The position numbers and the translations under genes were made by a program. Of a stretch of 64,000 nucleotides of DNA, positions 9,001 through 64,000 are shown piece after piece. The notes below the pieces were generated by a model, which worked only from the letters and a program-made list of their open reading frames with translations, did not search any database and had not been told where the DNA came from. Position 1 is the stretch's first letter. Every line of letters starts with the position of its first letter. The stretch comes from Coffea arabica (lineage: Eukaryota; Streptophyta; Magnoliopsida; Gentianales; Rubiaceae): the NCBI RefSeq assembly GCF_036785885.1, contig NC_092316.1, forward strand, positions 26,343,001-26,407,000, in the 5' to 3' direction.

Positions 9001-9005
9001 CACCG
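9001..9005. repeat. Target-site duplication CACCG, right copy
   Basis: Matches 6231-6235 exactly and marks the outer edge of the solo LTR. Confidence 0.93.
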
Positions 9006-13733: not shown

Positions 13734-13902
13734 GTTGGTATCAGAGCTTAGGCTTCAGATCTCGGTAGTATATCCTAGGCTTGATGTTTAGGATGCCGGA
13801 CTGTGGGTTTGGTTTGAAATATTAGTGATTCTTGAGGGATATCTTGATCTGATTAGTACAACAGGGAATGTCGAGGACGACATTCTTTTAAGGAGGGGAG
13901 TT
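13734..13902 (+). other. Array A internal region 1 (169 bp)
   Basis: Primer site TGGTATCAGAGC at 13736-13747, a hairpin at 13866-13885 (stems GAATGTCG and CGACATTC, loop AGGA), then the polypurine tract AAGGAGGGGAG before the next LTR. There is nothing between them that could code. Confidence 0.92.
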
Positions 13903-16359: not shown

Positions 16360-16528
16360 GTTGGTATCAGAGCTTAGGCTTCAGATCTCGGTAGTATATC
16401 CTAGGCTTGATGTTTAGGATGCCGGACTGTGGGTTTGGTTTGAAATATTAGTGATTCTTGAGGGATATCTTGATCTGATTAGTACAACAGGGAATGTCGA
16501 GGACGACATTCTTTTAAGGAGGGGAGTT
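16360..16528 (+). other. Array A internal region 2 (169 bp)
   Basis: Primer site 16362-16373, pre-polypurine hairpin 16492-16511, polypurine tract to 16528. By eye it is identical to the first internal region. Confidence 0.92.
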
Positions 16529-18984
16529 TGTGACGCCTGAAAAAAAAAAGAGTTTGAGAACCCGGAAATTTTCTAAATTTCTAGGGTTTATTTTATTAAA
16601 TCGCCCGCCTTTTCTACATTTTCTTTATTAGAAAATGTTCCCCACATAAAGTTTATGAGCAAAGATAGTTTAAAAATGATTTTTCTAGTATCGGTTAGTT
16701 TTTGAGAAATTATGAGCGTATTTTGAACGTGGGACCCGCAAGTGCGGTAAATGCATTATATTTTTGCCAACTTGTTGGAATTTTGTATTAAATGATATTA
16801 TTTTACAAAGTGTTAAGATATTTGTATTGGAGAGACAAAAAGATAAGATTAAAGCTTAGAGGTGCCAAGTGTCACAAACCCATTGGATGTTGAATTTGAC
16901 CAAGACTTTTCTAACTTTACTAAAACCAATTTGGACCCAATTTTTCTCCCATTTTTCTTGTCATGGCTGGCTGTTAAGAGGAGCAAAATAAGAGAGAAAA
17001 AACTTCATTTTCTACTCCACTTTCTAGCTTCAATCTTACTCCAATCTACCAAATCAACCATTGAATTTTGTTTTTGCTCCATAGAAAACATTAAGTGAGT
17101 GTTTGTGAGGTGTTTATTGGAGTGATTTGGAAGATTTAAGTGCAAGGTTGCTCCATCTCTTTGGTTACCCAGGTGAGTGGTGAAGGATCCCTTTCCTCCC
17201 TTAATTGATGCTTAAATCATGATTGGTGGTGGTATGAGATGCAATATTATGGATTATTTCTTGATTTGTGGTTGAAGTGATGAAGTTTTATTATTTTTGG
17301 GGATTTTTCTGTTTTAATATGAACATGATTGTGTGGCTATATATGATGATTGGAAATGATGTTTAAGGACTCTATGAGGTGGAAAAAGTGATTAATTGCA
17401 AACAATTTCTGTTTTGGAAGAAATCTTGGAAATTTAGGGTTTGATGTTCTTCATTCTGCCCGAATTTGTAGCTCATAGATAGAGGCCGAATTGGCCTTAT
17501 CTTAAAACATGAAAGTTGTAGGGAATGACATTCTAGAGGTGCCTACAAAATTTCAGGTCAATCGGAGTAGCGTAGCTTGAGAAAAGTCGAAATTACCCTT
17601 GCTGTCCTGGTTTTACCCGAATTTGGGAATTGCTTCTGTAATTGTTTGTTTTGGTCAGGAATGCTTCTGAATTGGTTGTTGAGGTCTTCTGATGAATTGA
17701 AGCCGTGTTTCTTAGCTTTCAGCTGATTTTGGAATTTCTGGATTTGGACTTGGAGAGCCTGAGTTATGATGTTTCCGCTAGAATGCGTTTTGGTGAATCT
17801 GTTTTTGTGATTCCGATGTAGTATCTTGCATTTTTGACCTGGTTACACTCGAAACTGGGTTGAGTGACCTTCTGCAATATTGTACCCCTATCTCTTAGCT
17901 TCGAAACGGTGGGTCTTGTACCTTCATCCGACAATCGTAGTGCCTTTGGTGCCATTACCGCAAAAGGATGTCAAAAGCTATTTTTCTGGTTTTGAGCTTA
18001 ACTTTCATTTCCGAACTTTTCCCTAGCTTGACTTGTACTAGTACTACTTGGAGCTTGCTGAATGGCTATTGGATGAACTTGTTGTTGTGTGTGTACCTTT
18101 GGGACTGGCTGAGGAAATAATGAAGCCATGATGGCTGGAAAAGTAAGCAAATTTAGGGGAAGTGATGTCCGAACTTTTAAAGGACTTGTTTGCATTGAGT
18201 TTGTGATCTAAGACTTGGATTTGAGCAAGGCAATGATATATGATGGATGGTTTCTGAGCCATGGAGGTGAGCGACCCTAAACTATTTCCAAAGTACTTGT
18301 GAAATGCTTCTTGCATTATTTATTCTATTGCATATCATGCGTGCTTGCATGTGGATTCATGACATGATTTGGCTTCAATGAGTTCTGGGAAAGTCTAGTG
18401 CTGGACACCAACGTCTCCACCTTGTTTATGGTTCATGTTCATGTTTATCTGGAGCTCAAAAAGGGGCTCCCTCTCAATGTTAATGTTAAATGATCTATTT
18501 GAGCGTTGGGTGTTCAAGTGCAATGATTTCACTGGCTCATGAGAGCAATAAATGTACATTTGATCTCTGAATCATGACATCATCGAAATGATCGAAATGC
18601 ATTATTGTGAAATATATTTGATTTCTGATTTTACTGGTTACTCGCTGAGCTTTTAGCTCACCCCAAAACTATTTTTTTTCCTCCACAGGGCTCAAGGCGA
18701 AGGCAGGACTTGTTGTGCTTATTCACGTGAATGGATGGCCTATATCTTGTACAGTTTTGGATTTGGAATCATTTGATGTATAGTTGGGAATTAGTTTCCG
18801 CTGCATTTGTGACATGTAATTATTGGAGACTTGGATGTATATTTGTGGACCATGTGATGTATATTTGATGTTTATTCTTGTAATTCATTTGAGGACTTTA
18901 GTGAACGACTGAGTCCCGGCGAGAGTCGGGCAGGCGGCCCGCCGAACCCTGGGGTACGCCCTAGGGGGAGGTGGGGCCGTCACA
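16529..18984 (+). mobile_element. Array A LTR 3
   Basis: 2456 bp. Carries the TTACCCAGG donor variant and CTGCCCG variant shared with copies 4 and 5, but GACATTCTAG and AAAGTCG where those read GATATTCTAG and AAAGCCG. Confidence 0.92.
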
Positions 18985-19153
18985 GTTGGTATCAGAGCTT
19001 AGGCTTCAGATCTCGGTAGTATATCCTAGGCTTGATGTTTAGGATGCCGGACTGTGGGTTTGGTTTGAAATATTAGTGATTCTTGAGGGATATCTTGATC
19101 TGATTAGTACAACAGGGAATGTCGAGGACGACATTCTTTTAAGGAGGGGAGTT
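18985..19153 (+). other. Array A internal region 3 (169 bp)
   Basis: Primer site 18987-18998, hairpin 19117-19136, polypurine tract to 19153. Confidence 0.92.
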
Positions 19154-21609
19154 TGTGACGCCTGAAAAAAAAAAGAGTTTGAGAACCCGGAAATTTTCTA
19201 AATTTCTAGGGTTTATTTTATTAAATCGCCCGCCTTTTCTACATTTTCTTTATTAGAAAATGTTCCCCACATAAAGTTTATGAGCAAAGATAGTTTAAAA
19301 ATGATTTTTCTAGTATCGGTTAGTTTTTGAGAAATTATGAGCGTATTTTGAACGTGGGACCCGCAAGTGCGGTAAATGCATTATATTTTTGCCAACTTGT
19401 TGGAATTTTGTATTAAATGATATTATTTTACAAAGTGTTAAGATATTTGTATTGGAGAGACAAAAAGATAAGATTAAAGCTTAGAGGTGCCAAGTGTCAC
19501 AAACCCATTGGATGTTGAATTTGACCAAGACTTTTCTAACTTTACTAAAACCAATTTGGACCCAATTTTTCTCCCATTTTTCTTGTCATGGCTGGCTGTT
19601 AAGAGGAGCAAAATAAGAGAGAAAAAACTTCATTTTCTACTCCACTTTCTAGCTTCAATCTTACTCCAATCTACCAAATCAACCATTGAATTTTGTTTTT
19701 GCTCCATAGAAAACATTAAGTGAGTGTTTGTGAGGTGTTTATTGGAGTGATTTGGAAGATTTAAGTGCAAGGTTGCTCCATCTCTTTGGTTACCCAGGTG
19801 AGTGGTGAAGGATCCCTTTCCTCCCTTAATTGATGCTTAAATCATGATTGGTGGTGGTATGAGATGCAATATTATGGATTATTTCTTGATTTGTGGTTGA
19901 AGTGATGAAGTTTTATTATTTTTGGGGATTTTTCTGTTTTAATATGAACATGATTGTGTGGCTATATATGATGATTGGAAATGATGTTTAAGGACTCTAT
20001 GAGGTGGAAAAAGTGATTAATTGCAAACAATTTCTGTTTTGGAAGAAATCTTGGAAATTTAGGGTTTGATGTTCTTCATTCTGCCCGAATTTGTAGCTCA
20101 TAGATAGAGGCCGAATTGGCCTTATCTTAAAACATGAAAGTTGTAGGGAATGATATTCTAGAGGTGCCTACAAAATTTCAGGTCAATCGGAGTAGCGTAG
20201 CTTGAGAAAAGCCGAAATTACCCTTGCTGTCCTGGTTTTACCCGAATTTGGGAATTGCTTCTGTAATTGTTTGTTTTGGTCAGGAATGCTTCTGAATTGG
20301 TTGTTGAGGTCTTCTGATGAATTGAAGCCGTGTTTCTTAGCTTTCAGCTGATTTTGGAATTTCTGGATTTGGACTTGGAGAGCCTGAGTTATGATGTTTC
20401 CGCTAGAATGCGTTTTGGTGAATCTGTTTTTGTGATTCCGATGTAGTATCTTGCATTTTTGACCTGGTTACACTCGAAACTGGGTTGAGTGACCTTCTGC
20501 AATATTGTACCCCTATCTCTTAGCTTCGAAACGGTGGGTCTTGTACCTTCATCCGACAATCGTAGTGCCTTTGGTGCCATTACCGCAAAAGGATGTCAAA
20601 AGCTATTTTTCTGGTTTTGAGCTTAACTTTCATTTCCGAACTTTTCCCTAGCTTGACTTGTACTAGTACTACTTGGAGCTTGCTGAATGGCTATTGGATG
20701 AACTTGTTGTTGTGTGTGTACCTTTGGGACTGGCTGAGGAAATAATGAAGCCATGATGGCTGGAAAAGTAAGCAAATTTAGGGGAAGTGATGTCCGAACT
20801 TTTAAAGGACTTGTTTGCATTGAGTTTGTGATCTAAGACTTGGATTTGAGCAAGGCAATGATATATGATGGATGGTTTCTGAGCCATGGAGGTGAGCGAC
20901 CCTAAACTATTTCCAAAGTACTTGTGAAATGCTTCTTGCATTATTTATTCTATTGCATATCATGCGTGCTTGCATGTGGATTCATGACATGATTTGGCTT
21001 CAATGAGTTCTGGGAAAGTCTAGTGCTGGACACCAACGTCTCCACCTTGTTTATGGTTCATGTTCATGTTTATCTGGAGCTCAAAAAGGGGCTCCCTCTC
21101 AATGTTAATGTTAAATGATCTATTTGAGCGTTGGGTGTTCAAGTGCAATGATTTCACTGGCTCATGAGAGCAATAAATGTACATTTGATCTCTGAATCAT
21201 GACATCATCGAAATGATCGAAATGCATTATTGTGAAATATATTTGATTTCTGATTTTACTGGTTACTCGCTGAGCTTTTAGCTCACCCCAAAACTATTTT
21301 TTTTCCTCCACAGGGCTCAAGGCGAAGGCAGGACTTGTTGTGCTTATTCACGTGAATGGATGGCCTATATCTTGTACAGTTTTGGATTTGGAATCATTTG
21401 ATGTATAGTTGGGAATTAGTTTCCGCTGCATTTGTGACATGTAATTATTGGAGACTTGGATGTATATTTGTGGACCATGTGATGTATATTTGATGTTTAT
21501 TCTTGTAATTCATTTGAGGACTTTAGTGAACGACTGAGTCCCGGCGAGAGTCGGGCAGGCGGCCCGCCGAACCCTGGGGTACGCCCTAGGGGGAGGTGGG
21601 GCCGTCACA
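19154..21609 (+). mobile_element. Array A LTR 4
   Basis: 2456 bp, nearly identical to LTR 5 over the shared part. Same intron-like and hairpin signals at equivalent offsets. Confidence 0.92.
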
Positions 21610-21778
21610 GTTGGTATCAGAGCTTAGGCTTCAGATCTCGGTAGTATATCCTAGGCTTGATGTTTAGGATGCCGGACTGTGGGTTTGGTTTGAAATATTA
21701 GTGATTCTTGAGGGATATCTTGATCTGATTAGTACAACAGGGAATGTCGAGGACGACATTCTTTTAAGGAGGGGAGTT
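21610..21778 (+). other. Array A internal region 4 (169 bp)
   Basis: Primer site 21612-21623, hairpin 21742-21761, polypurine tract to 21778. Confidence 0.92.
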
Positions 21779-23299
21779 TGTGACGCCTGAAAAAAAAAAG
21801 AGTTTGAGAACCCGGAAATTTTCTAAATTTCTAGGGTTTATTTTATTAAATCGCCCGCCTTTTCTACATTTTCTTTATTAGAAAATGTTCCCCACATAAA
21901 GTTTATGAGCAAAGATAGTTTAAAAATGATTTTTCTAGTATCGGTTAGTTTTTGAGAAATTATGAGCGTATTTTGAACGTGGGACCCGCAAGTGCGGTAA
22001 ATGCATTATATTTTTGCCAACTTGTTGGAATTTTGTATTAAATGATATTATTTTACAAAGTGTTAAGATATTTGTATTGGAGAGACAAAAAGATAAGATT
22101 AAAGCTTAGAGGTGCCAAGTGTCACAAACCCATTGGATGTTGAATTTGACCAAGACTTTTCTAACTTTACTAAAACCAATTTGGACCCAATTTTTCTCCC
22201 ATTTTTCTTGTCATGGCTGGCTGTTAAGAGGAGCAAAATAAGAGAGAAAAAACTTCATTTTCTACTCCACTTTCTAGCTTCAATCTTACTCCAATCTACC
22301 AAATCAACCATTGAATTTTGTTTTTGCTCCATAGAAAACATTAAGTGAGTGTTTGTGAGGTGTTTATTGGAGTGATTTGGAAGATTTAAGTGCAAGGTTG
22401 CTCCATCTCTTTGGTTACCCAGGTGAGTGGTGAAGGATCCCTTTCCTCCCTTAATTGATGCTTAAATCATGATTGGTGGTGGTATGAGATGCAATATTAT
22501 GGATTATTTCTTGATTTGTGGTTGAAGTGATGAAGTTTTATTATTTTTGGGGATTTTTCTGTTTTAATATGAACATGATTGTGTGGCTATATATGATGAT
22601 TGGAAATGATGTTTAAGGACTCTATGAGGTGGAAAAAGTGATTAATTGCAAACAATTTCTGTTTTGGAAGAAATCTTGGAAATTTAGGGTTTGATGTTCT
22701 TCATTCTGCCCGAATTTGTAGCTCATAGATAGAGGCCGAATTGGCCTTATCTTAAAACATGAAAGTTGTAGGGAATGATATTCTAGAGGTGCCTACAAAA
22801 TTTCAGGTCAATCGGAGTAGCGTAGCTTGAGAAAAGCCGAAATTACCCTTGCTGTCCTGGTTTTACCCGAATTTGGGAATTGCTTCTGTAATTGTTTGTT
22901 TTGGTCAGGAATGCTTCTGAATTGGTTGTTGAGGTCTTCTGATGAATTGAAGCCGTGTTTCTTAGCTTTCAGCTGATTTTGGAATTTCTGGATTTGGACT
23001 TGGAGAGCCTGAGTTATGATGTTTCCGCTAGAATGCGTTTTGGTGAATCTGTTTTTGTGATTCCGATGTAGTATCTTGCATTTTTGACCTGGTTACACTC
23101 GAAACTGGGTTGAGTGACCTTCTGCAATATTGTACCCCTATCTCTTAGCTTCGAAACGGTGGGTCTTGTACCTTCATCCGACAATCGTAGTGCCTTTGGT
23201 GCCATTACCGCAAAAGGATGTCAAAAGCTATTTTTCTGGTTTTGAGCTTAACTTTCATTTCCGAACTTTTCCCTAGCTTGACTTGTACTAGTACTACTT
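21779..23299 (+). mobile_element. Array A LTR 5, truncated
   Basis: Follows LTR 4 through GTACTACTT at 23299, then jumps to Ogre-like LTR sequence. About 935 bp of its 3' end, including the acceptor-like site and U5, is missing. The missing part does not reappear downstream, so this is a deletion junction and not a simple insertion. Confidence 0.9.
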
Positions 23300-24039
23300 T
23301 ATTCACTTTCTTTACTTTTCACTTCACACATTGCACCTATTTTACTTATATATTTACTATTTTCATTCACTTGCACACGAGCATTTATATTTCATTCATT
23401 TGCACACAAACACTTTCAAATTGCACACATGCACTTTTTTCTACACTTTGCACACTTACACTCTCATTTGAGTCCTCATTTGCATCATTCATGATTTTCT
23501 ATGAGGACTTTCCTTATTGGCCGTCACGACTCGTGTGAATGGGACCAAAAGCCTCATAAGAAACATTTCTTAGACTTAGGATTGCATTTCTCATTCATTA
23601 GTCAAATCCAATTTGCAATACATACTTTGGGTAGAAAATATAGGAAAATAAGGGTTAAATCACGCAACTAGCCTTGGTTAGGTCGAAGGGGTGCCTTGGA
23701 TTTTTATCCTTGCCTTCCCCTTCGTCAAATGTGACTCCCGAACCTTTTTCTTTGTTTTACGTGGACTAGGAGTCGTTTAAAAAGGGTTTTCTTACTTTTT
23801 TCTTTAAAAAATTCATTTTTTGGGTGACTTGGTACACCCTAACTCTATACCAAGTGGCGACTCCATTTTTCATATAAAAACCCTTTTTGAATTATTTTTC
23901 TTGGGTCAAATCGTCGCATTTTCAAAAGTCCCATTTAGACCCATTTTTATTTTTATCAAAAAATTCACTTTTTCCAAACCAATAAAATCACAAAAAAAAA
24001 CAATCATTTTATTTTTTCCAAAAAAAGTGGGGCGCGACA
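23300..24039 (+). mobile_element. Ogre-like LTR, truncated 3' portion, diverged
   Basis: 740 bp matching the last part of the LTRs ending at 36796 and 49702, ending in GGGGCGCGACA. By eye it differs from those in roughly one base in six or seven plus indels, whereas the other two are almost identical. About 4.6 kb of the LTR's 5' side is missing at the junction with array A. Confidence 0.85.
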
Positions 24040-26442: not shown

Positions 26443-28251
26443 ATGAGTTCACAACCGGAACAGTCAGATAGGTCTGCTACTACCGCTCAACCCGAGACTG
26501 CAAGTTTGGGGATTCAGTTGACTGAGATGCTTACCAAGTTTGGAGAGATGGCGTCTGAGATGGCCGCCCAAAAGAAGTTGAATGATGAGCTAATTAGCAG
26601 CGGAGTTCAACCCGAACCTGTACCCGCCAGACAGCCTGAGCAAGAGCCATTTGTCCTACCTTCGGCCCATGCCACTGTTACTCCATCATTTCCTATTGCA
26701 CCCGAAGAAACTTTCACCTATCCCACCACAAATTTGCCATACACTTACCCTCCTCATCCTTCATTTTTTCTTACTCACATGCGAGGTCTACCACCCCAAA
26801 TCACTTCAAATATACCACCTGAGCCACATACCTTTTATCACCCTGTTGCTGAGCCATTCCTACCAGATCATACTGTTCAAACCAAGGCAGAAATGGGGGA
26901 ACCTTCTGCTCCCGTTGATATAAAGCTGCTCAAACGTCTTGATCGTTTTGATGAGTTTATGAGGAAGAGTCAGGGGTTGAACAAGCAAGAAGTCCTAGAT
27001 TACGATAAGCTTTGTTTCTTCCCAAATGTGCAATTGCCTGAGGGATTCAAAACCCCTAAGTTTAACAAGTACGATGGGACGGGTAATCCCAAGACACACC
27101 TCCGACTATTTGCTAACAAGTTAGGAAAGCCTGTAGACGACGAGAACCTGCCTCTAAGGTTGTTCCCGGAAAGTCTGGAGGGGGATGCCCTCGACTGGTA
27201 CTCAAATTTGAAGTCCGAAGAAGTAAAAACCTGGATTGACTTGTCCAATGCTTTTGTAAGGCAATACGAGTATAATTGCGAGCTGGCTCCAACACGAACC
27301 ACATTGGAAGGGACAAAGAGGAAGCCATCTGAAGATCACAAGACTTATGCCAAGAGATGGAGAAAAATAGCTGCCAAAGTCGAGCCACCGATGACTGAGG
27401 ACAAAATCATACGCACTTTCATTAAGGCACATGATCCTCCATATTTCGAAGAAATTTTTCGCATGACTGGATGCTCGTTCGCTGCTATTGTCAATAAACT
27501 TGAGGAGTACGATGACTTCGTGAAAGCTGGGAAGATTGTTAATGTCTCTACCCTCAAGTCACAGTTGGATGCTTTGCAAGGTCAGGGGACTAGTGGGAAG
27601 AACCCGCAATTCCAAAAGAAAAAGGGGGAAACTGCCTTCACCTGGAATCAAAACCCTGTCCCAAGACCCAGACCTCGACAATACCCTACCTACTCAAACC
27701 CTTACCCCTACTACTTAAATCCTCATCCTGTTTACCACACCAATATCACTCATCCTCGACCTCGCCCAAATTATGCCAACTCGCCTACAACCCCTTTCCA
27801 AATATCTCAACCAAGCTTTCAACAAGCTCGTCCTCGGGCTCCTTACCACCAAAGATTTTCCCTACCAAATAGACCCACCTACAACTATCCCCGACCCACT
27901 GAAACCTACAATCAAAGCCGTACCCGAACCTTCGCCAACCTAGGCAGACCTTTGGACCAATTGTATGAGCAATTGAAGGTTGCCAACAAAATAGGCGTGA
28001 TTCCCCCTCCAACTTACCTTCATGGTATGCCTGTTGGGTACAATCCACATGCTATTTGTGCCTATCATTCGGGAGTACCTGGTCACTCAACCGTCGATTG
28101 CAGGGCACTCAAGCACAAAGTCCAAGACATGATCGAGGCAGGGGAAATAATGCTAAGGAAAAGAGGTGAACAAGGGCCGAGCATAAGTACAAATCCTTTC
28201 CCTGAACACAAGGACACCTTCGAAGCATCCACCTCCAATGACGAAATTTGA
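26443..28251 (+). CDS. Ogre/Tat-type Gag (602 aa), unit 1
   Basis: The structural protein that would package element RNA. Residues 1-200 are Pro/Gln-rich with a short helix (LTEMLTKFGEMASEMAA). The capsid-like retrotransposon Gag domain spans about 205-340, with FNKYDGTGNPKTHL, GDALDWYSNL and YAKRWRKIAAKVEPPMTE. A Pro/Tyr/Arg-rich linker (about 400-500) follows, and a modified zinc knuckle C-X2-H-X5-H-X4-C lies at about 538-552, then KHKVQDMIEAGE, typical of this clade. The ATG at 26443 follows a long leader and begins the only long frame. The protein stops where protease should begin. It is identical in sequence to the second copy at 39355, which argues for recent duplication and possibly function supplied in trans to partners. 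Confidence 0.93.
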   Translation: MSSQPEQSDRSATTAQPETASLGIQLTEMLTKFGEMASEMAAQKKLNDELISSGVQPEPVPARQPEQEPFVLPSAHATVTPSFPIAPEETFTYPTTNLPYTYPPHPSFFLTHMRGLPPQITSNIPPEPHTFYHPVAEPFLPDHTVQTKAEMGEPSAPVDIKLLKRLDRFDEFMRKSQGLNKQEVLDYDKLCFFPNVQLPEGFKTPKFNKYDGTGNPKTHLRLFANKLGKPVDDENLPLRLFPESLEGDALDWYSNLKSEEVKTWIDLSNAFVRQYEYNCELAPTRTTLEGTKRKPSEDHKTYAKRWRKIAAKVEPPMTEDKIIRTFIKAHDPPYFEEIFRMTGCSFAAIVNKLEEYDDFVKAGKIVNVSTLKSQLDALQGQGTSGKNPQFQKKKGETAFTWNQNPVPRPRPRQYPTYSNPYPYYLNPHPVYHTNITHPRPRPNYANSPTTPFQISQPSFQQARPRAPYHQRFSLPNRPTYNYPRPTETYNQSRTRTFANLGRPLDQLYEQLKVANKIGVIPPPTYLHGMPVGYNPHAICAYHSGVPGHSTVDCRALKHKVQDMIEAGEIMLRKRGEQGPSISTNPFPEHKDTFEASTSNDEI

Positions 28252-31399: not shown

Positions 31400-31815
31400 T
31401 GTAGACACCAAATTTTGGTGTAATTTCATTTGCTGTTTATTTTTAATTTTTTCATTTTAGTTTTATTCGATTTTTAGTTTTAGTTTCTAGTTTTATTTTT
31501 ATTTTTAAGTTGTTAGCATAGAATCTCTTGGAAAATGAATGAAAATGAGAAAGTGAAAAGAAAAGAGGAGAGAAAAGAAAGAAAAAAGAAAATTGCCCAC
31601 AAAATATGTTTTATGTCTTCTAAATTCAATCTTTTGGCATTTTGTTTATTTTTGTTAAGTTATTTTGAAAAAAAAAAAAAGAAAGAAAAAAAAAAAGAGA
31701 AAAACGATGAAAATAGGAAATGGAAAAGAAATGGAAATTGCACTTTATTGTTCTAGTTTATTTTTCATCAAATGTTAATTATTTTGTTTTTATTATTATC
31801 AATTTTGTTTGTTTC

Positions 31816-31870
31816 AAAAAAAAAAATCAAAAAATCAAAAAATCAAAAAATCAAAAAATCAAAAAATCAA
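31816..31870 (+). repeat. TCAAAAAA short tandem repeat
   Basis: Six or so copies of TCAAAAAA. The other full LTR (44741-44777) has a rearranged version with TAAAAAAA units, so this block mutates faster than its surroundings. Confidence 0.85.
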
Positions 31871-32029
31871 AATTCTATTTCTGCCGAATCCATTTCCATT
31901 TTACATTCCAGCACCTTCCATCTCTATGCCGACTTATAACCTCTAAAACACTCTACCTCCCTCATCCGCCACTCATTCCATTCCACTACCTCAGAACACA
32001 ACAAGATTTCTCTCCACTATCACAACTTG

Positions 32030-32680
32030 GCATTACCACTCCACCTCACATCGGAATCATCGACCAGAGAGACAAAGAGGGAGCCGCACCTTGCATCTGG
32101 AAAAAAAAAAAGAAAAAAACTCGGGAGCTGAATCTTTCTTGTTTCTGTCCGTGAGCTCGAAGGAAGAGAGGGAGAAGTTGTGCGTGAGTCCCCTTCGTTT
32201 CTCTTCAACCTCCACTAGCTGCAATCATCTTCCAACCAACACCATCACCGCAGCAACCACCAGCTCCACCATCTGCCACAGCCAAGCGAACCAAACCTGT
32301 GCGTGCGAGCCGAAAGGAAGGAAGATTTTCTCAGCTTTCTTGCGCATGAGTTGAGCTCCCAGCTGAGCTCACAACAACATTTCTCTGCCTTGGTATCATT
32401 GACGAGAGAAGCCAGAAAGAGAGCGGTGCGAGCTTCGGTACTTGAACTGTCCGAGAGAGGGTGAGAGCAGGAGACAATTGCGTCAGCTTCATTACTTTCT
32501 CCATCATCTGAGAGCTGCCATTATTCTTCACCTCAACCAGCCGTGCTCAATTCAACCACAATCACTACAACTGCAACCACTGAACTCAGACCAACCAACC
32601 CTGCGTGCGTGAGCAAAGCCGAGAGGAGGAAAATTTTGCAGCTGCTTGGCGTGTGAGCTAAGTCTTAAGCTGAGGTAAAT
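32030..32680 (+). repeat. Diverged tandem duplication in the LTR leader
   Basis: Two halves (about 32030-32365 and 32390-32680) share an order of landmarks: ATCATCGACCAGAGAGA versus ATCATTGACGAGAGAAG, then an ACCAACAC / ACTACAACTGCAACC-rich stretch, then CTGTGCGTGCGAGCCGA versus CTGCGTGCGTGAGCAAAG. The whole looks like an untranslated transcript leader. Confidence 0.6.
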
Positions 32681-34138
32681 TTCTGGACTTAAACTAGTTG
32701 TTTATGGGTTGATGAAGTTGTTTAAGGGCATGCATGTGAGGATTGTGTGGTTAGATGATAACTTAAGTTATAGAAAAATCTGTTTGTGAAGAAAATGGTT
32801 GCCGAGAGTTTAAGCTGGAAATTTGCAGCTTCGGTTGACCAAGTTTTGATGATCTGAGCTATATGTATGTTTAACTAACCAAAGCCTGGATGATCTAGCT
32901 CTGCATGAAGCTAATTAACTTGGATTAAACAAGAAAATTGAAGGAATACCAAAAATCCGGTTGCATGCATGTCAATCGAGAGAATTGGGTTGAATTTCTG
33001 GTTAAATGGTGATTTTGATGACATTTGAACTTGATTTTGGATCCAATCTGATAGATAGTTTGTTATTTGGTGTTGCATGTGATCTTTATGGCTGAGGAAT
33101 TTGGTTGCATGGCTGGAAATTTTATTGGAAGTTGCTGGATTGCTAAACCAATTTTTCCAGTTTAGCCGTTGAAGTTTGTTTTGGAAATTGCATGGGTATT
33201 TTAGCATGAAATTTGCTGGAAAGTGGTTGATTTTCACTTGGTTAGATGTTTAATTAAAATTAGATGTTCAAGCTAAGGAAGTTTATTGGTCTGGCTAAGC
33301 AAGAAAAAAAAATGAAATAATGAACAACTCCAATTGCCGAATGCTGGCTGGACTTTTCTCTAAGCACTGGTGTGTTTTTCTGTTTAGGTTTTGGCTTATT
33401 AGGATGTTGAATTTGGTAATTTTATTGTTAAGATCAAAGTTATGATGTTTGTTTAAGATTCTAGTTTTTGTTTGGATGGAAAAGTTGCATTAGAATGACC
33501 ACAAGAATGGCAAAAAACATTGCTGGAAAATGTACATAGCTGGCCGAATCTTCATGTCTTACGATTTTAGTTTTTTTTGTTTACTCTTTCATTTCGGTTC
33601 CAAGCTGGTATCTTGTCTAGATGACAGTTCAATCAAGCCTTTTATTGGTTGTTTGCATGAATATGTCTAAGTGTAAGAAGAAATTGCATGAGAATGGTTG
33701 TGGAAGGAAAGATTTTTCCTGAAGCTGCGAAATGGTTATAGCAGAAATTTTCTTCATGGCATTTGCATGATTTTTCTTTTATGTTTTGGTTTGATTGAAT
33801 GTTGAAGTTGTTTGCGGAAATGAAGTTGGTTTGATTTGAAAGAATTTTGATTAAGTTTGTGTCGAGGTTGACATTTGTTTTGCGGAAATGAAAGTAGCAA
33901 TGTTGTTTTGGGCTGCAGAAAGCTTTCAGCAAAAATGATTGTTGCAGAAACAAGTTTCTTACGCTTGTTGCATGAACCTGCATGGAAATTGTTTCAAAAT
34001 TGCCTTTGAACCCCCCCAAGTCCCCCCTTAGCTCACTATGGCCCAAGTAATTTGAATACTTAATCAATTTAATCCTTCAAGCTTCTCCATGTTCCACAAA
34101 AGCCCAAACATGTTCTCATTTCTTTACAAAAAGGTCCT

Positions 34139-34336
34139 AAGGAGGTGTTAAGATTCTTCAGTTGTTTGACACCCTTGTTGATGGAAAATCTGTATTCCGA
34201 GGGGTTTAGTGTGTGTTTGGAGGATTTTTATATACCAAAGGCTATTATTGAGGCTGTCCAGCAAAGTCTTCAAGATATTTCACCCTTGCTATATCATATG
34301 CGCTCAACTCAAAGTGAATCAATAAAATTACAGTAA
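34139..34336 (+). pseudogene. NRPD1: NRPD1-like fragment (RNA polymerase IV largest subunit) inside the LTR, copy 1
   Basis: About 66 codons of open frame, including LTPLLMENLYSEGFSVCLED, IPKAIIEAVQQSL and ISPLLYHMRSTQSES, ending at a TAA after KLQ. I recognise this as a conserved internal segment of the largest subunit of plant RNA polymerase IV (NRPD1), with polymerase V (NRPE1) as the near alternative. The enzyme starts 24-nt siRNA production for DNA methylation of transposons. Here only one exon-sized piece is present, with no ATG of its own and no catalytic aspartate triad. The end near ACAGTAATC could be an old splice donor. It is bracketed by a repeated LTR segment (about 33914-34138 and 34896-35065). 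The same piece occurs in the other full LTR. Confidence 0.68.
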
Positions 34337-36798
34337 TCTTTTTCCATCTTGCCTAAAAGTTCCATAAGTGTTTTATATAATTTCCTTCTATGTTTTGCTT
34401 GTTGGATGTGAGTTTTATTTGTTTTGATTGCTTAATCCAGAGTTTGGACAAATGAAATGGTTATACTTAAGGCTGTCTAGAGCCCATTTGTAAATGAAGC
34501 TGCAGCAGACTTCTCCTTTAGTTGTAGCAGATTTTGAATATCAAATGTTTGCATGTTTTTCTTTCAGAATGTGGCGTGATATCCTGTTAAGTTTTTTAGC
34601 CTTTTTAGATGCGGAAGTTCTTATTTTGGTTGCTTAGTTTTTTATTTTGGTGTCTGGGGAACAAAGTTTAGATCAAAATTGGGCATTTGGATGGGAACCT
34701 GCGTTTTTGGGAAATAAAATTTCCAGCAAGTTCTATTTTCTGCCGCAATATGGTTCATCATTTGATCTTTCATTTCATTTTAAGGGTTGGTTGTTTATGA
34801 AGGGATTGAGTTAACAAAAATGTTCAGTTGTCAAGGGTGTTTGAGAGTTGGTGTTAGTTAGTTAGTTTGTTTAAAATCTGGCATGAAGTTTACAAGAGGA
34901 AGCTGCCGAAAGTTTATTGCAGAAACTTGTTTACGTTGTTTTCTTTGTTGCATGAATTTGGCATGTAAAAAGTTTCAAAAAATTGCAAATCAGTCCCCCA
35001 TGTTCCTCCGCATATTACTAAGGCCCAACTATGTTCTAGTAGCTTACAATTGGGTTCTAAAATAATTGCAATTTGAGTCATGACTTGGCCCCCTTCCTTG
35101 CTTTTGAGCTCATTCAAGGTGCAATTAGGTGGTTTTTGATGTTTTTGCTTATACTTTACTTTTAAATTGATGCCTTGACCCCTTTATTGTTTTGAAGCCA
35201 TTTTCCTTCATTTGCTTACCATTAGGGGAAGGTATAACTTTCTTTTATCTTCTTTACTTCTCTCTTACGTGCTCCTACGTGTTACGTGAATTGCATGTCT
35301 ACTTGGCTTTCTTAAGTTTTCTTTAATTCCTTTCATTTTTAAGTCTTTCTTTTATTTTATTTATGGGGTATGTGTACACCTCTTGGCTTGTAATAGATAG
35401 GGCATTAGAGAGCACTTTGTCCATTTTTCCCCCTTCCCCCATTTGTTTTAGTTAGCCCATGTAATAGTTTCATTTGCTTTTGGGGTATTATTTGGTTTGC
35501 TATGTGTTTAATTTGCTTTATTAAACTATTGCATCTAGTCGAGCATGCTAAGTGTTATGTGCTACGTGTTATAAGTGATTTTGCATGTCTACTTGCTTTC
35601 TATATTTATAAATGAATGTGATGGATGAATGTACGTTTCCACTAGTCCAACGCTAGTCGGAATTCATAGAATGGGCTAGTCCAACGCTAGACCCTTAGGG
35701 ACCCTCCTCGCTAGTTCACATTCGCATGCTCCACTACATTTCATACATTTTTAGTTTTTATGGCATTTGGCATGTCCCTCTAACCTTTTCCCTTTCATTT
35801 TAGGCCTTTGCATCTCATGCTAGTTAGGGTACATTTGCCTGAAGGGTCCCTTTCTGATAAGGGAAACGAGCGAGTGTGGCTACTCGATAGCCTTAGCACA
35901 CTAGTTTTGCCTTCTAATCAAAGGGAAAATCGAAGTCGACAAGTTAGGAGTCATTCCCATACCCGACCTGATGCATTCCCTTAGGTTCATTCATTCTCAT
36001 TCATCACTCACTCATTCTTTTCAATTCACATTTCCTTTCCTTATTGTTCATTTTGATTTCTACTTCACGAAATTGCATTTAATTACACCTATATGCACTT
36101 ATCACTATATTTCATACACTTGCACACAAATACTTGGAATTTTCATACAATTGCACACGTGCACCTTTTCATACACTTACACACAAACACTTGGATTTTT
36201 AAATTTCTTTTCATACACTTCCACACTTGCACATTTGAGTCTCATTTGCATTAATCGACCTCTATGGGGTTTTCCTTTGTTGGCCGCCACAATTCATGTG
36301 GTTTGGGATCAAAAGCCTCACGAGAGACATCGTAGAATTTAGGATTGCATTTTTCTCTCCGTTTTGCATTCATATAGTCATATCCAACGTGCGAACATAT
36401 ATTGGGTAGAAAATTAGGAAAGGTAAGGTTAAGTCGCGCAACTAGCCTTGGCTAGGTCAAAGGGGTGCCTTGGATTCTATCCTTGCCTTCCCCTTTGTCA
36501 AACGTGACCCCCGAACCTTTTTCTTTGGCTTACGTGGACTAGGAGTCGTTTTAAAAAGGGTTTTACTACTTTGTCTTTAAAAAACACTTTTTGGGTGACT
36601 TGGTACACCCCAAATCTATACCAAGTGGCGACTCCATTTTCATATTTAAAAAAACCCTTTTTAAAATTTCAATTGGCCAAATCGTCGCTTTCCAAAGTCC
36701 CATGGCCTTTTTACTTTTCATTTTGCACACGTTCACACCACACTTCACACACACATCACTCACACAATTCACACAATCCAAAAGTGGGGCGCGACAGT

Positions 36799-36817
36799 TG
36801 GCGACTCCACTGGGGAC
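36799..36817 (+). promoter_or_regulatory. Primer-binding site, unit 2
   Basis: Same 19 bases as at 24042-24060, two bases after the LTR end at 36796. Confidence 0.8.
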
Positions 36818-39354: not shown

Positions 39355-41163
39355 ATGAGTTCACAACCGGAACAGTCAGATAGGTCTGCTACTACCGCTC
39401 AACCCGAGACTGCAAGTTTGGGGATTCAGTTGACTGAGATGCTTACCAAGTTTGGAGAGATGGCGTCTGAGATGGCCGCCCAAAAGAAGTTGAATGATGA
39501 GCTAATTAGCAGCGGAGTTCAACCCGAACCTGTACCCGCCAGACAGCCTGAGCAAGAGCCATTTGTCCTACCTTCGGCCCATGCCACTGTTACTCCATCA
39601 TTTCCTATTGCACCCGAAGAAACTTTCACCTATCCCACCACAAATTTGCCATACACTTACCCTCCTCATCCTTCATTTTTTCTTACTCACATGCGAGGTC
39701 TACCACCCCAAATCACTTCAAATATACCACCTGAGCCACATACCTTTTATCACCCTGTTGCTGAGCCATTCCTACCAGATCATACTGTTCAAACCAAGGC
39801 AGAAATGGGGGAACCTTCTGCTCCCGTTGATATAAAGCTGCTCAAACGTCTTGATCGTTTTGATGAGTTTATGAGGAAGAGTCAGGGGTTGAACAAGCAA
39901 GAAGTCCTAGATTACGATAAGCTTTGTTTCTTCCCAAATGTGCAATTGCCTGAGGGATTCAAAACCCCTAAGTTTAACAAGTACGATGGGACGGGTAATC
40001 CCAAGACACACCTCCGACTATTTGCTAACAAGTTAGGAAAGCCTGTAGACGACGAGAACCTGCCTCTAAGGTTGTTCCCGGAAAGTCTGGAGGGGGATGC
40101 CCTCGACTGGTACTCAAATTTGAAGTCCGAAGAAGTAAAAACCTGGATTGACTTGTCCAATGCTTTTGTAAGGCAATACGAGTATAATTGCGAGCTGGCT
40201 CCAACACGAACCACATTGGAAGGGACAAAGAGGAAGCCATCTGAAGATCACAAGACTTATGCCAAGAGATGGAGAAAAATAGCTGCCAAAGTCGAGCCAC
40301 CGATGACTGAGGACAAAATCATACGCACTTTCATTAAGGCACATGATCCTCCATATTTCGAAGAAATTTTTCGCATGACTGGATGCTCGTTCGCTGCTAT
40401 TGTCAATAAACTTGAGGAGTACGATGACTTCGTGAAAGCTGGGAAGATTGTTAATGTCTCTACCCTCAAGTCACAGTTGGATGCTTTGCAAGGTCAGGGG
40501 ACTAGTGGGAAGAACCCGCAATTCCAAAAGAAAAAGGGGGAAACTGCCTTCACCTGGAATCAAAACCCTGTCCCAAGACCCAGACCTCGACAATACCCTA
40601 CCTACTCAAACCCTTACCCCTACTACTTAAATCCTCATCCTGTTTACCACACCAATATCACTCATCCTCGACCTCGCCCAAATTATGCCAACTCGCCTAC
40701 AACCCCTTTCCAAATATCTCAACCAAGCTTTCAACAAGCTCGTCCTCGGGCTCCTTACCACCAAAGATTTTCCCTACCAAATAGACCCACCTACAACTAT
40801 CCCCGACCCACTGAAACCTACAATCAAAGCCGTACCCGAACCTTCGCCAACCTAGGCAGACCTTTGGACCAATTGTATGAGCAATTGAAGGTTGCCAACA
40901 AAATAGGCGTGATTCCCCCTCCAACTTACCTTCATGGTATGCCTGTTGGGTACAATCCACATGCTATTTGTGCCTATCATTCGGGAGTACCTGGTCACTC
41001 AACCGTCGATTGCAGGGCACTCAAGCACAAAGTCCAAGACATGATCGAGGCAGGGGAAATAATGCTAAGGAAAAGAGGTGAACAAGGGCCGAGCATAAGT
41101 ACAAATCCTTTCCCTGAACACAAGGACACCTTCGAAGCATCCACCTCCAATGACGAAATTTGA
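39355..41163 (+). CDS. Ogre/Tat-type Gag (602 aa), unit 2
   Basis: Same protein, residue for residue, as the copy at 26443-28251: Pro-rich N-terminus, capsid-like domain at about 205-340, Pro/Tyr-rich linker, and the C-X2-H-X5-H-X4-C motif near 538-552. It is preceded by the same context (GGAGTCGTGTAAAC before the ATG) and followed by the same decayed 3' region. Identity over 1.8 kb while leader repeats differ shows the duplication is young. No protease or RT follows, so any cDNA synthesis would depend on a partner element's enzymes. Confidence 0.93.
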   Translation: MSSQPEQSDRSATTAQPETASLGIQLTEMLTKFGEMASEMAAQKKLNDELISSGVQPEPVPARQPEQEPFVLPSAHATVTPSFPIAPEETFTYPTTNLPYTYPPHPSFFLTHMRGLPPQITSNIPPEPHTFYHPVAEPFLPDHTVQTKAEMGEPSAPVDIKLLKRLDRFDEFMRKSQGLNKQEVLDYDKLCFFPNVQLPEGFKTPKFNKYDGTGNPKTHLRLFANKLGKPVDDENLPLRLFPESLEGDALDWYSNLKSEEVKTWIDLSNAFVRQYEYNCELAPTRTTLEGTKRKPSEDHKTYAKRWRKIAAKVEPPMTEDKIIRTFIKAHDPPYFEEIFRMTGCSFAAIVNKLEEYDDFVKAGKIVNVSTLKSQLDALQGQGTSGKNPQFQKKKGETAFTWNQNPVPRPRPRQYPTYSNPYPYYLNPHPVYHTNITHPRPRPNYANSPTTPFQISQPSFQQARPRAPYHQRFSLPNRPTYNYPRPTETYNQSRTRTFANLGRPLDQLYEQLKVANKIGVIPPPTYLHGMPVGYNPHAICAYHSGVPGHSTVDCRALKHKVQDMIEAGEIMLRKRGEQGPSISTNPFPEHKDTFEASTSNDEI

Positions 41164-44313: not shown

Positions 44314-47300
44314 TGTAGACACCAAATTTTGGTGTAATTTCATTTGCTGTTTATTTTTAATTTTTTCATTTTAGTTTTATTCGATTTTTAGTTTTAGTTT
44401 CTAGTTTTATTTTTATTTTTAAGTTGTTAGCATAGAATCTCTTGGAAAATGAATGAAAATGAGAAAGTGAAAAGAAAAGAGGAGAGAAAAGAAAGAAAAA
44501 AGAAAATTGCCCACAAAATATGTTTTATGTCTTCTAAATTCAATCTTTTGGCATTTTGTTTATTTTTGTTAAGTTATTTTGAAAAAAAAAAAAAGAAAGA
44601 AAAAAAAAAAAGAGAAAAACGATGAAAATAGGAAATGGAAAAGAAATGGAAATTGCACTTTATTGTTCTAGTTTATTTTTCATCAAATGTTAATTATTTT
44701 GTTTTTATTATTATCAATTTTGTTTGTTTCAAAAAAAAAAATCAAAAAATAAAAAAATCAAAAAATAAAAAAATCAAAATTCTATTTCTGCCGAATCCAT
44801 TTCCATTTTACATTCCAGCACCTTCCATCTCTATGCCGACTTATAACCTCTAAAACACTCTACCTCCCTCATCCGCCACTCATTCCATTCCACTACCTCA
44901 GAACACAACAAGATTTCTCTCCACTATCACAACTTGGCATTACCACTCCACCTCACATCGGAATCATCGACCAGAGAGACAAAGAGGGAGCCGCACCTTG
45001 CATCTGGAAAAAAAAAAAGAAAAAAACTCGGGAGCTGAATCTTTCTTGTTTCTGTCCGTGAGCTCGAAGGAAGAGAGGGAGAAGTTGTGCGTGAGTCCCC
45101 TTCGTTTCTCTTCAACCTCCACTAGCTGCAATCATCTTCCAACCAACACCATCACCGCAGCAACCACCAGCTCCACCATCTGCCACAGCCAAGCGAACCA
45201 AACCTGTGCGTGCGAGCCGAAAGGAAGGAAGATTTTCTCAGCTTTCTTGCGCATGAGTTGAGCTCCCAGCTGAGCTCACAACAACATTTCTCTGCCTTGG
45301 TATCATTGACGAGAGAAGCCAGAAAGAGAGCGGTGCGAGCTTCGGTACTTGAACTGTCCGAGAGAGGGTGAGAGCAGGAGACAATTGCGTGAGCTTCATT
45401 ACTTTCTCCATCATCTGAGAGCTGCCATTATTCTTCACCTCAACCAGCCGTGCTCAATTCAACCACAATCACTACAACTGCAACCACTGAACTCAGACCA
45501 ACCAACCCTGCGTGCGTGAGCAAAGCCGAGAGGAGGAAAATTTTGCAGCTGCTTGGCGTGTGAGCTAAGTCTTAAGCTGAGGTAAATTTCTGGACTTAAA
45601 CTAGTTGTTTATGGGTTGATGAAGTTGTTTAAGGGCATGCATGTGAGGATTGTGTGGTTAGATGATAACTTAAGTTATAGAAAAATCTGTTTGTGAAGAA
45701 AATGGTTGCCGAGAGTTTAAGCTGGAAATTTGCAGCTTCGGTTGACCAAGTTTTGATGATCTGAGCTATATGTATGTTTAACTAACCAAAGCCTGGATGA
45801 TCTAGCTCTGCATGAAGCTAATTAACTTGGATTAAACAAGAAAATTGAAGGAATACCAAAAATCCGGTTGCATGCATGTCAATCGAGAGAATTGGGTTGA
45901 ATTTCTGGTTAAATGGTGATTTTGATGACATTTGAACTTGATTTTGGATCCAATCTGATAGATAGTTTGTTATTTGGTGTTGCATGTGATCTTTATGGCT
46001 GAGGAATTTGGTTGCATGGCTGGAAATTTTATTGGAAGTTGCTGGATTGCTAAACCAATTTTTCCAGTTTAGCCGTTGAAGTTTGTTTTGGAAATTGCAT
46101 GGGTATTTTAGCATGAAATTTGCTGGAAAGTGGTTGATTTTCACTTGGTTAGATGTTTAATTAAAATTAGATGTTCAAGCTAAGGAAGTTTATTGGTCCG
46201 GCTAAGCAAGAAAAAAAAATGAAATAATGAACAACTCCAATTGCCGAATGCTGGCTGGACTTTTCTCTAAGCACTGGTGTGTTTTTCTGTTTAGGTTTTG
46301 GCTTATTAGGATGTTGAATTTGGTAATTTTATTGTTAAGATCAAAGTTATGATGTTTGTTTAAGATTCTAGTTTTTGTTTGGATGGAAAAGTTGCATTAG
46401 AATGACCACAAGAATGGCAAAAAACATTGCTGGAAAATGTACATAGCTGGCCGAATCTTCATGTCTTACGATTTTAGTTTTTTTTGTTTACTCTTTCATT
46501 TCGGTTCCAAGCTGGTATCTTGTCTAGATGATAGTTCAATCAAGCCTTTTATTGGTTGTTTGCATGAATATGTCTAAGTGTAAGAAGAAATTGCATGAGA
46601 ATGGTTGTGGAAGGAAAGATTTTTCCTGAAGCTGCGAAATGGTTATAGCAGAAATTTTCTTCATGGCATTTGCATGATTTTTCTTTTATGTTTTGGTTTG
46701 ATTGAATGTTGAAGTTGTTTGCGGAAATGAAGTTGGTTTGATTTGAAAGAATTTTGATTAAGTTTGTGTCGAGGTTGACATTTGTTTTGCGGAAATGAAA
46801 GTAGCAATGTTGTTTTGGGCTGCAGAAAGCTTTCAGCAAAAATGATTGTTGCAGAAACAAGTTTCTTACGCTTGTTGCATGAACCTGCATGGAAATTGTT
46901 TCAAAATTGCCTTTGAACCCCCCCAAGTCCCCCCTTAGCTCACTATGGCCCAAGTAATTTGAATACTTAATCAATTTAATCCTTCAAGCTTCTCCATGTT
47001 CCACAAAAGCCCAAACATGTTCTCATTTCTTTACAAAAAGGTCCTAAGGAGGTGTTAAGATTCTTCAGTTGTTTGACACCCTTGTTGATGGAAAATCTGT
47101 ATTCCGAGGGGTTTAGTGTGTGTTTGGAGGATTTTTATATACCAAAGGCTATTATTGAGGCTGTCCAGCAAAGTCTTCAAGATATTTCACCCTTGCTATA
47201 TCATATGCGCTCAACTCAAAGTGAATCAATAAAATTACAGTAATCTTTTTCCATCTTGCCTAAAAGTTCCATAAGTGTTTTATATAATTTCCTTCTATGT

Positions 47301-49702
47301 TTTGCTTGTTGGATGTGAGTTTTATTTGTTTTGATTGCTTAATCCAGAGTTTGGACAAATGAAATGGTTATACTTAAGGCTGTCTAGAGCCCATTTGTAA
47401 ATGAAGCTGCAGCAGACTTCTCCTTTAGTTGTAGCAGATTTTGAATATCAAATGTTTGCATGTTTTTCTTTCAGAATGTGGCGTGATATCCTGTTAAGTT
47501 TTTTAGCCTTTTTAGATGCGGAAGTTCTTATTTTGGTTGCTTAGTTTTTTATTTTGGTGTCTGGGGAACAAAGTTTAGATCAAAATTGGGCATTTGGATG
47601 GGAACCTGCGTTTTTGGGAAATAAAATTTCAAGCAAGTTCTATTTTCTGCCGCAATATGGTTCATCATTTGATCTTTCATTTCATTTTAAGGGTTGGTTG
47701 TTTATGAAGGGATTGAGTTAACAAAAATGTTCAGTTGTCAAGGGTGTTTGAGAGTTGGTGTTAGTTAGTTAGTTTGTTTAAAATCTGGCATGAAGTTTAC
47801 AAGAGGAAGCTGCCGAAAGTTTATTGCAGAAACTTGTTTACGTTGTTTTCTTTGTTGCATGAATTTGGCATGTAAAAAGTTTCAAAAAATTGCAAATCAG
47901 TCCCCCATGTTCCTCCGCATATTACTAAGGCCCAACTATGTTCTAGTAGCTTACAATTGGGTTCTAAAATAATTGCAATTTGAGTCATGACTTGGCCCCC
48001 TTCCTTGCTTTTGAGCTCATTCAAGGTGCAATTAGGTGGTTTTTGATGTTTTTGCTTATACTTTACTTTTAAATTGATGCCTTGACCCCTTTATTGTTTT
48101 GAAGCCATTTTCCTTCATTTGCTTACCATTAGGGGAAGGTATAACTTTCTTTTATCTTCTTTACTTCTCTCTTACGTGCTCCTACGTGTTACGTGAATTG
48201 CATGTCTACTTGGCTTTCTTAAGTTTTCTTTAATTCCTTTCATTTTTAAGTCTTTCTTTTATTTTATTTATGGGGTATGTGTACACCTCTTGGCTTGTAA
48301 TAGATAGGGAATTAGAGAGCACTTTGTCCATTTTTCCCCCTTCCCCCATTTGTTTTAGTTAGCCCATGTAATAGTTTCATTTGCTTTTGGGGTATTATTT
48401 GGTTTGCTATGTGTTTAATTTGCTTTATTAAGCTATTGCATCTAGTCGAGCATGCTAAGTGTTATGTGCTACGTGTTATAAGTGATTTTGCATGTCTACT
48501 TGCTTTCTATATTTATAAATGAATGTGATGGATGAATGTACGTTTCCACTAGTCCAACGCTAGTCGGAATTCATAGAATGGGCTAGTCCAACGCTAGACC
48601 CTTAGGGACCCTCCTCGCTAGTTCACATTCGCATGCTCCACTACATTTCATACATTTTTAGTTTTTATGGCATTTGGCATGTCCCTCTAACCTTTTCCCT
48701 TTCATTTTAGGCCTTTGCATCTCATGCTAGTTAGGGTACATTTGCCTGAAGGGTCCCTTTCTGATAAGGGAAACGAGCGAGTGTGGCTACTCGATAGCCT
48801 TAGCACACTAGTTTTGCCTTCTAATCAAAGGGAAAATCGAAGTCGACAAGTTAGGAGTCATTCCCATACCCGACCTGATGCATTCCCTTAGGTTCATTCA
48901 TTCTCATTCATCACTCACTCATTCTTTTCAATTCACATTTCCTTTCCTTATTGTTCATTTTGATTTCTACTTCACGAAATTGCATTTAATTACACCTATA
49001 TGCACTTATCACTATATTTCATACACTTGCACACAAATACTTGGAATTTTCATACAATTGCACACGTGCACCTTTTCATACACTTGCACACAAACACTTG
49101 GATTTTTAAATTTCTTTTCATACACTTCCACACTTGCACATTTGAGTCTCATTTGCATTAATCGACCTCTATGGGGTTTTCCTTTGTTGGCCGCCACAAT
49201 TCATGTGGTTTGGGATCAAAAGCCTCACGAGAGACATCGTAGAATTTAGGATTGCATTTTTCTCTCCGTTTTGCATTCATATAGTCATATCCAACGTGCG
49301 AACATATATTGGGTAGAAAATTAGGAAAGGTAAGGTTAAGTCGCGCAACTAGCCTTGGCTAGGTCAAAGGGGTGCCTTGGATTCTATCCTTGCCTTCCCC
49401 TTTGTCAAACGTGACCCCCGAACCTTTTTCTTTGGCTTACGTGGACTAGGAGTCGTTTTAAAAAGGGTTTTACTACTTTGTCTTTAAAAAACACTTTTTG
49501 GGTGACTTGGTACACCCCAAATCTATACCAAGTGGCGACTCCATTTTCATATTTAAAAAAACCCTTTTTAAAATTTCAATTGGCCAAATCGTCGCTTTCC
49601 AAAGTCCCATGGCCTTTTTACTTTTCATTTTGCACACGTTCACACCACACTTCACACACACATCACTCACACAATTCACACATCCAAAAGTGGGGCGCGA
49701 CA
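44314..49702 (+). mobile_element. Ogre-like LTR, right copy (5389 bp)
   Basis: Begins TGTAGACACCAAA after the polypurine tract AAAGAGGGGCAAAC and ends GGGGCGCGACA at 49702. It is almost identical to the copy at 31400-36796. The sequence after it (CAAAG...) is not a primer site, so this is the true right end of the element. The left edge is lost, so no duplication can be checked. Confidence 0.9.
47046..47243 (+). pseudogene. NRPD1: NRPD1-like fragment inside the LTR, copy 2
   Basis: Identical in translated sequence to the fragment at 34139-34336, in the same position relative to the LTR start. Both full LTRs carry it, so it was present before the last round of cDNA synthesis or duplication and has been copied as part of the element. 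Confidence 0.68.
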
Positions 49703-50211: not shown

Positions 50212-50360
50212 CGGCGTTTGAGATGCACTAGTGTATTAAGGGAGTTTCAAGTGACATTGTCAAGGACAATTTAGTATTTTGCAGTGTTTTGTCATTATTT
50301 AATTTATTTTCCTTCTCCATTTCTTCCCTGCTCACAACCAAACTGGTCAATAATACCAAA

Positions 50361-50782
50361 ATGGTCAGCGACACTGGTGAACACCAATCATCGTCAGTAC
50401 CACCACTGGTGGTCAGTAGCTCCACCATCACCAACAATCACCAGCAAGTCAGCAACTCTACCATCAATCATCACTCTGCCGTGGTATTCCCTCCACCGTG
50501 GGAATCTCAGGGCCAACCACTGGCAGGAGGTCGCCGACAACATCGCTCCTAGATGCCCCATCGGCAACGCCAAAACGGCCGTTCAGTACCGGCACAAGAT
50601 GGAGAAGCTGAGGAAACGTTACCGTGTCGAGATCCAACGCGCCGGCCCCTACGGCGGATCTAAGAGCCACAGGTATTGCTCCGCCTGGGTCCACTTTAAA
50701 CGCATGGATGCCAATTCTTCCGCTGCGGCCGAAGCCAATGAGGATGAAGAAGATCAGGAAGAGTCACATGTTAAGCCCATTG

Positions 50783-50821
<39 letters not shown>

Positions 50822-63999: not shown

Positions 64000-64000
64000 T

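Follow-up and report, generated by a model that had tools for sequence, protein, structure and literature searches.

The 64,000-nucleotide stretch of Coffea arabica DNA that we analyzed (the window) contains, on the plus strand, a tandem LTR-internal-LTR-internal-LTR arrangement in which the first LTR is truncated. This first LTR (LTR_A) is a remnant at positions 23310-24039, and is followed by LTR_B, which occupies 31400-36796 (5397 nt, TGTAGACACC...GCGCGACA), and by LTR_C, the 3′ LTR of the second unit, at 44314-49702 (5389 nt). The limits of LTR_B and LTR_C were set by comparison with the LTR pairs of two elements on contigs C4 and C1, and by the primer-site-like word after LTR_B. This word, TGGCGACTCCACTGGGGAC, is located at 36799-36817 (+), directly after LTR_B, with another at 24042, and both are putative primer-binding sites. 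The two units are 99.3% alike over 12 kb (the unit from 24843 compared with the unit from 37759), and the sole frame of at least 150 aa in each is a plus-strand gag frame of 602 aa, at 26443-28251 in the first unit and at 39355-41163 in the second. The two translations are the same, and Pfam confirmed one gag (Retrotrans_gag, PF03732, second unit). No pol was visible among frames of at least 150 aa in the window units, and a scan of 10 open stretches between 31717 and 43753 for further captured domains identified no family above the cut-off.

The direct LTRs with TG...CA ends and the primer-site-like word behind the 5′ LTR are those of an LTR retrotransposon. As for a 5-bp target-site duplication, the C4 element is flanked by TCTAC on both sides, the C1 pair is without matching flanks, and in the window the first LTR is truncated. 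An 18.3-kb element on contig C21 (L048), which is a carrier of the same captured host sequence as the window units, contains both a gag frame and a pol frame, the latter with the order reverse transcriptase, RNase H, a second RNase H (RVT_3) and integrase. We take this order, with its additional RNase H, to be the rule for the Tat clade, and the C21 carrier fits it. By its predicted domains, the element is a Tat-type Ty3/Gypsy LTR retrotransposon. Like the members of this clade (the Tat, Ogre and Retand lineages), it has very long LTRs and, in the 18.3-kb carrier, the same domain order; unlike them, the window units have gag but no pol.

The element sits among other repeats. To its left, positions 1151-4477 and 80-1144 (minus) belong to a different Ty3/Gypsy element with a 1108-aa frame (gag, protease, reverse transcriptase, RNase H), beside which lies a 354-aa frame with an SH3_Tf2-1 domain. 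A tandem array at 11277-23299, with a period of about 2625 bp and about 4.6 copies that are 98.3-99.7% alike, ends just left of LTR_A. Just right of the element, an open frame at 50284-50835 contains a MADF / Myb-SANT-like DNA-binding domain, and a second tandem array runs from 53119 to 64000 (period about 3627 bp, three copies, 99.9%). Over 738 columns, this second array resembles the 2625-bp one at about 72%, and a 1.6-kb portion matches 7419-9001 in inverted orientation (82%).

About 2.7 kb into LTR_B, and in the sense orientation of the element, we identified a piece of one exon of the host gene NRPE1, which encodes the largest subunit of RNA polymerase V. The piece occupies 34129-34333 (+), i.e., 205 nt, with 5 mismatches to the NRPE1 gene on contig C3 and 6 differences from its homeolog on C4. 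The second copy, at 47036-47240 (+), lies in LTR_C. The window holds two such pieces and not three, as the first LTR is truncated before reaching it. The initial annotation had described an open stretch at 34139-34336, present again at 47046-47243, and had placed it inside the LTR; we confirm this, with the first lying in 31400-36796 and the second in 44314-49702, and with the 198 nt of the stretch identical in LTR_B and LTR_C. The stretch encodes 65 residues and a stop codon, the stop codon being LTR sequence. The match to the host begins upstream of 34139, at 34129 if ungapped or at 34119 with one gap, and ends at 34333. The capture of an NRPE1 piece inside the LTR is real.

The open stretch had been read as a fragment of NRPD1, the largest subunit of RNA polymerase IV. 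Our analysis upheld that it is a fragment of a silencing polymerase captured inside an LTR, but the paralogue was wrong. A search of PDB sequences with the peptide returned 28 rows, in which rows 1-3 were Pol V largest subunits (E = 4.3e-08, 1.4e-05 and 1.4e-05) and row 4 was unrelated (E = 0.94), so the best protein match is beyond chance; a Pol IV chain was absent from the 28 rows. A protein database search with the 65-residue peptide gave no candidate, and a Pfam scan of the same peptide gave no match. Within the 1.198-Gb genome (131 contigs), a search for the Rpb1 domain produced 37 matches to polymerase genes, and among the 20 polymerase loci extracted, good peptide matches were present only at L021 on C3 (61/65 residues) and L022 on C4 (60/65), both in sense orientation; two others, L023 and L024, gave weak partial matches (E about 0.01). 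The L021 donor exon matches Pol V at 2e-246 versus Pol IV at 6.3e-60. The host NRPD1 is another gene pair, L023 (C16) and its partner L024 (C15), of which L023 was compared and aligns to Pol IV at 7e-207. Since the L021 exon matches Pol V far better and L023 matches Pol IV, the donor is NRPE1. NRPD1 as donor is ruled out by these scores and by the finding that 3.5 kb of each NRPD1 locus and the six LTRs compared share no 21-mer. The piece is confined to one exon of NRPE1, which in the same genome stays open beyond both ends of the piece. Over 1749 exon positions, the NRPE1 homeologs show 6 differences (0.34%), and the occurrence of polymerase genes in pairs on neighbouring contig numbers suggests an allotetraploid.

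A genome-wide search with a 53-nt core of the piece, allowing 3 mismatches and using a core chosen for looking identical, gave 59 matches, all exact, of which 57 are in transposons and 2 are the NRPE1 genes themselves. On C15, another two copies retain the 5′ part only (121 nt) and are without the core. The total is 59 transposon copies on 14 contigs, which together with the 2 genes equal in number the 61 first-look candidates of our exon search. LTR limits were seen directly for the window, C4 and C1 elements, and the other copies were placed in LTRs from shared flanks and spacing. The 57 core-bearing copies form 34 clusters, of which 17 hold two copies, 3 hold three and 14 hold one, with a spacing of 12.2-18.3 kb within clusters. 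We distinguish four types. Type A, the longest form at 343 nt, has constant ends (host positions 2176-2518) in 21/21 copies, among 40 scored of the 61 candidates; 16 of these show no length change and 5 (A2) have one extra base. Type B, to which the window copies belong, numbers 27 copies by subtraction, 8 of them scored. Type C (9 copies) covers host positions 2184-2424, with a net change of +1 in 6 copies and +3 in 3 copies, and type D comprises the two 121-nt copies on C15, which look to have arisen from the C form by deletion.

Several carriers have further features. Tandem triple-LTR runs recur, being present at L011-L013 (G000:C13:32429000-32467000) as well as at 23310-49702 of the window, and the piece occurs in triples on C2 and C12. 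A carrier pair 198 kb from the window and on the opposite strand (L003/L004, G000:C7:26164905-26181016) is 99.8-99.97% like the window copies over 3198 nt, with a spacing of 12914 compared with 12907 in the window. The C4 carrier (L015) adjoins, left of its LTR, a stretch resembling the inverted start of a related LTR.

Alignment of six LTRs demonstrated that the block containing the capture (34119-35110, +, in LTR_B) is about 97-100% alike among them, and that outside this block the LTRs are strongly different, i.e., they are mosaics. At least four distinct LTR backgrounds carry the piece, typified by C1, by the window together with C4 and C13, by C21, and by C12 together with C20. Capture-free relatives fix the insertion point at the right junction of types A and B, and at both junctions of type C, with a different LTR for each. 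In the four capture-free LTRs that we fetched, the right flank is 98.0-98.5% alike, and the right switch point of types A and B lies inside a 10-nt word, AAATTACAGC, that is common to these LTRs and NRPE1. In type C (the C12/C20 background), the words CCTGCTT on the left and CCAAAG on the right are common to NRPE1 and to one capture-free LTR per side. The near flanks of type C differ from those of the other types on both sides, with only 70-77% patches further right. Short words common to the LTR and NRPE1 mark the switch points, as template switching leaves them, and we therefore regard a switch of template by reverse transcriptase as the best mechanism for the capture.

The differences between the copies and NRPE1 also bear on how often the capture occurred. 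Among the copies read, a C>A change at host position 2418 is present in every type covering that site, a T>C change at 2227 is common to types A, C and D, and changes at 2461 and 2438 (C or T) are common to types A and B. Since these differences recur across types, they suggest one capture of 343 nt, followed by trimming and by transfer among at least four LTR backgrounds. An independent second capture for type C is disfavoured by the shared differences, with an extra T common to A2 and C adding little, as it lies inside a T run where slippage can recur. The changes at 2227 and 2418 could also represent an older NRPE1 allele, or repeated capture.

Based on these observations, we propose that during reverse transcription of a Tat-type element the enzyme would have jumped from LTR RNA to a host NRPE1 template, presumably RNA rather than DNA, at a short common word, and would have extended over about 343 nt of a single exon before returning to the LTR. 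The chimeric LTR would have been copied into both LTRs and multiplied, and later switches would have carried all or part of the piece to further LTR backgrounds, among them that of the window, where 205 nt are left. As all bases of an LTR belong to U3, R or U5, the full-length genomic RNA of an element would hold the piece at least once. The piece would now persist mainly as a neutral passenger, in a family that was mobile recently.

The LTR pairs provide evidence of age. They are identical over 5425 nt in the C4 carrier and over 5297 nt in the C21 carrier, 99.6% alike over 4867 columns in the C1 pair, and in the window differ at 5 of 3198 positions compared. Since the C4 and C21 pairs are identical, some carriers are young, and the family is, by this measure, recently mobile. 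Among the copies read, divergence from NRPE1 is 1.7-2.4% for types A, C and the window copy, and 3.4% (7/206) for the C4 and C13 copies. Because these values exceed the 0.34% that separates the homeologs, the capture looks older than the homeolog split, but copying errors and relaxed constraint mean that the divergence gives no clock.

Taken as a whole, capture by template switching, spread, and persistence as a mainly neutral passenger is the explanation that we consider probable. We place it first mainly because captures are so common that a piece of a silencing gene is expected now and then; for example, a review counts 1343 transductions among the LTR elements of sorghum and, in maize, 1629 genes that served as donors to several kinds of transposon (PMC13317346). 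It is favoured over small RNAs lowering Pol V as the most likely reading. A benefit to the element would predict that carriers predominate, and among the closest LTRs they are not a minority. A 53-nt flank pattern (up to 3 mismatches allowed; taken from a carrier, and so biased towards carriers) matched 54 LTRs, of which 48 were carriers (44 exact, 4 with one mismatch) and 6 capture-free (one mismatch). Carriers are thus the rule among the closest LTRs, which speaks against pure neutrality and leaves room for a benefit. The 9 type C carriers have another flank and no match to this pattern; this type received the NRPE1 part alone, with no near flank from types A, B or D, and a selective reading is therefore tempting.

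One such reading is that the piece was kept and spread because small RNAs made by the host against the LTR also act on NRPE1 and reduce Pol V; stronger silencing would then weaken itself, and the element would gain an opportunity for transposition; we consider this unlikely, while giving it some weight. Its more specific form, in which small RNAs from the piece cleave NRPE1 mRNA or methylate the exon, thereby lowering Pol V and allowing this element and others to escape RNA-directed DNA methylation, is likewise improbable in our view. It is consistent with the predominance of carriers among LTRs with near-identical flanks described above, and with the finding that, in each window LTR, 99 21-mers and 88 24-mers match NRPE1 on C3 perfectly (88 and 79 for C4). 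There is also precedent, in that derived NRPE1 alleles of Arabidopsis, which show reduced CHH methylation, are associated with an increased number of recent transposon insertions (PMC8101250), and miR820 of a rice CACTA transposon lowers OsDRM2 (PMC3459959). However, all of the common 21- and 24-mers, with a longest unbroken run of 69 nt, are sense. Pairing of the element's own sense transcript with the host mRNA is impossible for this reason, and both strands would be needed for the regulatory role that the initial annotation had envisaged. The reverse complement of any 15-mer of the piece is absent from the 64-kb window, and of the 59 copies the closest one on the other strand lies at a distance of 198 kb. 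In sequence terms, a regulatory role of the piece via small RNAs is possible.

Conservation of the piece was also considered. The 53-nt core is unchanged in 57/57 core-bearing copies and in both NRPE1 genes, compared with 44/57 exact for the flank control, as small RNAs acting on NRPE1 would have it. However, special conservation of this core was not supported, as the core was picked for identity, and 17% of simulations gave an unvaried run as long as the longest one seen, 83 nt (the copies read supplied 16 variable sites, with the extra T and two junction sites omitted); the copies read show no conservation of the piece beyond chance. In addition, the window type holds only 205 of the 343 nt, and the two 121-nt copies on C15 dispense with the core altogether. 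In Brassica napus, donor genes overall have less siRNA than free genes, though siRNA and methylation are both higher at captured homoeologs than at the uncaptured member of the pair (PMC11986588).

A further reading reverses the direction of the effect, such that methylation of the LTR spreads by small RNAs to NRPE1 and the host consequently silences the copies less, i.e., a camouflage or epigenetic conflict in which the host pays for silencing copies. This idea is stated for captured genes in section 11 of the review as excerpted (PMC13317346), and since the donor is in the silencing pathway, such a loop would limit itself. Identical LTR pairs in some carriers, and the prevalence of carriers among the closest LTRs, are as it predicts. 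Set against this, a search with the LTR block gave 757 first-look candidates, and its capture-free total rests on the 40 that were scored (35 carriers and 5 capture-free). We judge this reading very unlikely.

Coding use of the piece also appears unlikely, because nonsynonymous changes outnumber synonymous ones by 7 to 1 in the one 343-nt copy scored (0.71 nonsynonymous expected without constraint) and because 11/59 copies have a net extra base by match lengths, seven of them read directly. Translation of the open stretch into a functional peptide, e.g., one disturbing Pol V, has in its favour 87 codons from stop to stop in the window and 61/65 residues kept, but the window copy repeats the excess (4 nonsynonymous, 1 synonymous), a further 3 copies have a net +3, and in-frame ATG codons occur only inside the piece; we give it almost no credence. 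Chance similarity or an assembly error is equally negligible, given an alignment of 205 nt to an open exon at 5 mismatches, which excludes chance, and given that the 59 copies, spread over 14 contigs, have a small set of boundaries that recur.

These findings can be compared with known systems. Among the matches listed from open-licence papers, there was no report of an NRPE1 or NRPD1 fragment in a retrotransposon. Plant LTR retrotransposons capture foreign sequence by abnormal template switching, and the captures in the excerpted review resemble ours in that host sequence is present in a mobile LTR element, is multiplied along with it, and has switch points at short words (PMC13317346). Unlike those excerpted cases, the piece here is in the LTR itself, and so is present twice per intact element, it occurs in at least four LTR backgrounds, and its donor is a core transposon-silencing gene. 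It also illustrates how template switching builds mosaic LTRs. Muyle et al. 2021 reportedly describe siRNAs that arise from captured pieces of genes and act on the gene of origin. The same is said of maize fragments in section 11 of the review, as excerpted (PMC13317346). Our element is similar to these in that transposon copies contain long runs identical to an extant donor gene, but differs in that the donor belongs to the machinery that would carry out the methylation. It constitutes a natural case of a transposon family with long perfect matches to a gene of its own silencing pathway, with carriers and capture-free LTRs in one genome, which makes the question of whether captured host fragments help transposons to escape directly testable. 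The closest parallel in target is miR820, where transposon sequence likewise matches a gene of RNA-directed DNA methylation, and where the near-perfect target match is also found in our element; in the excerpted account, however, miR820 is a microRNA with tested repression that resides in a DNA transposon and targets DRM2 (PMC3459959), whereas here an LTR element, with no hairpin source in the window, carries sequence of NRPE1.
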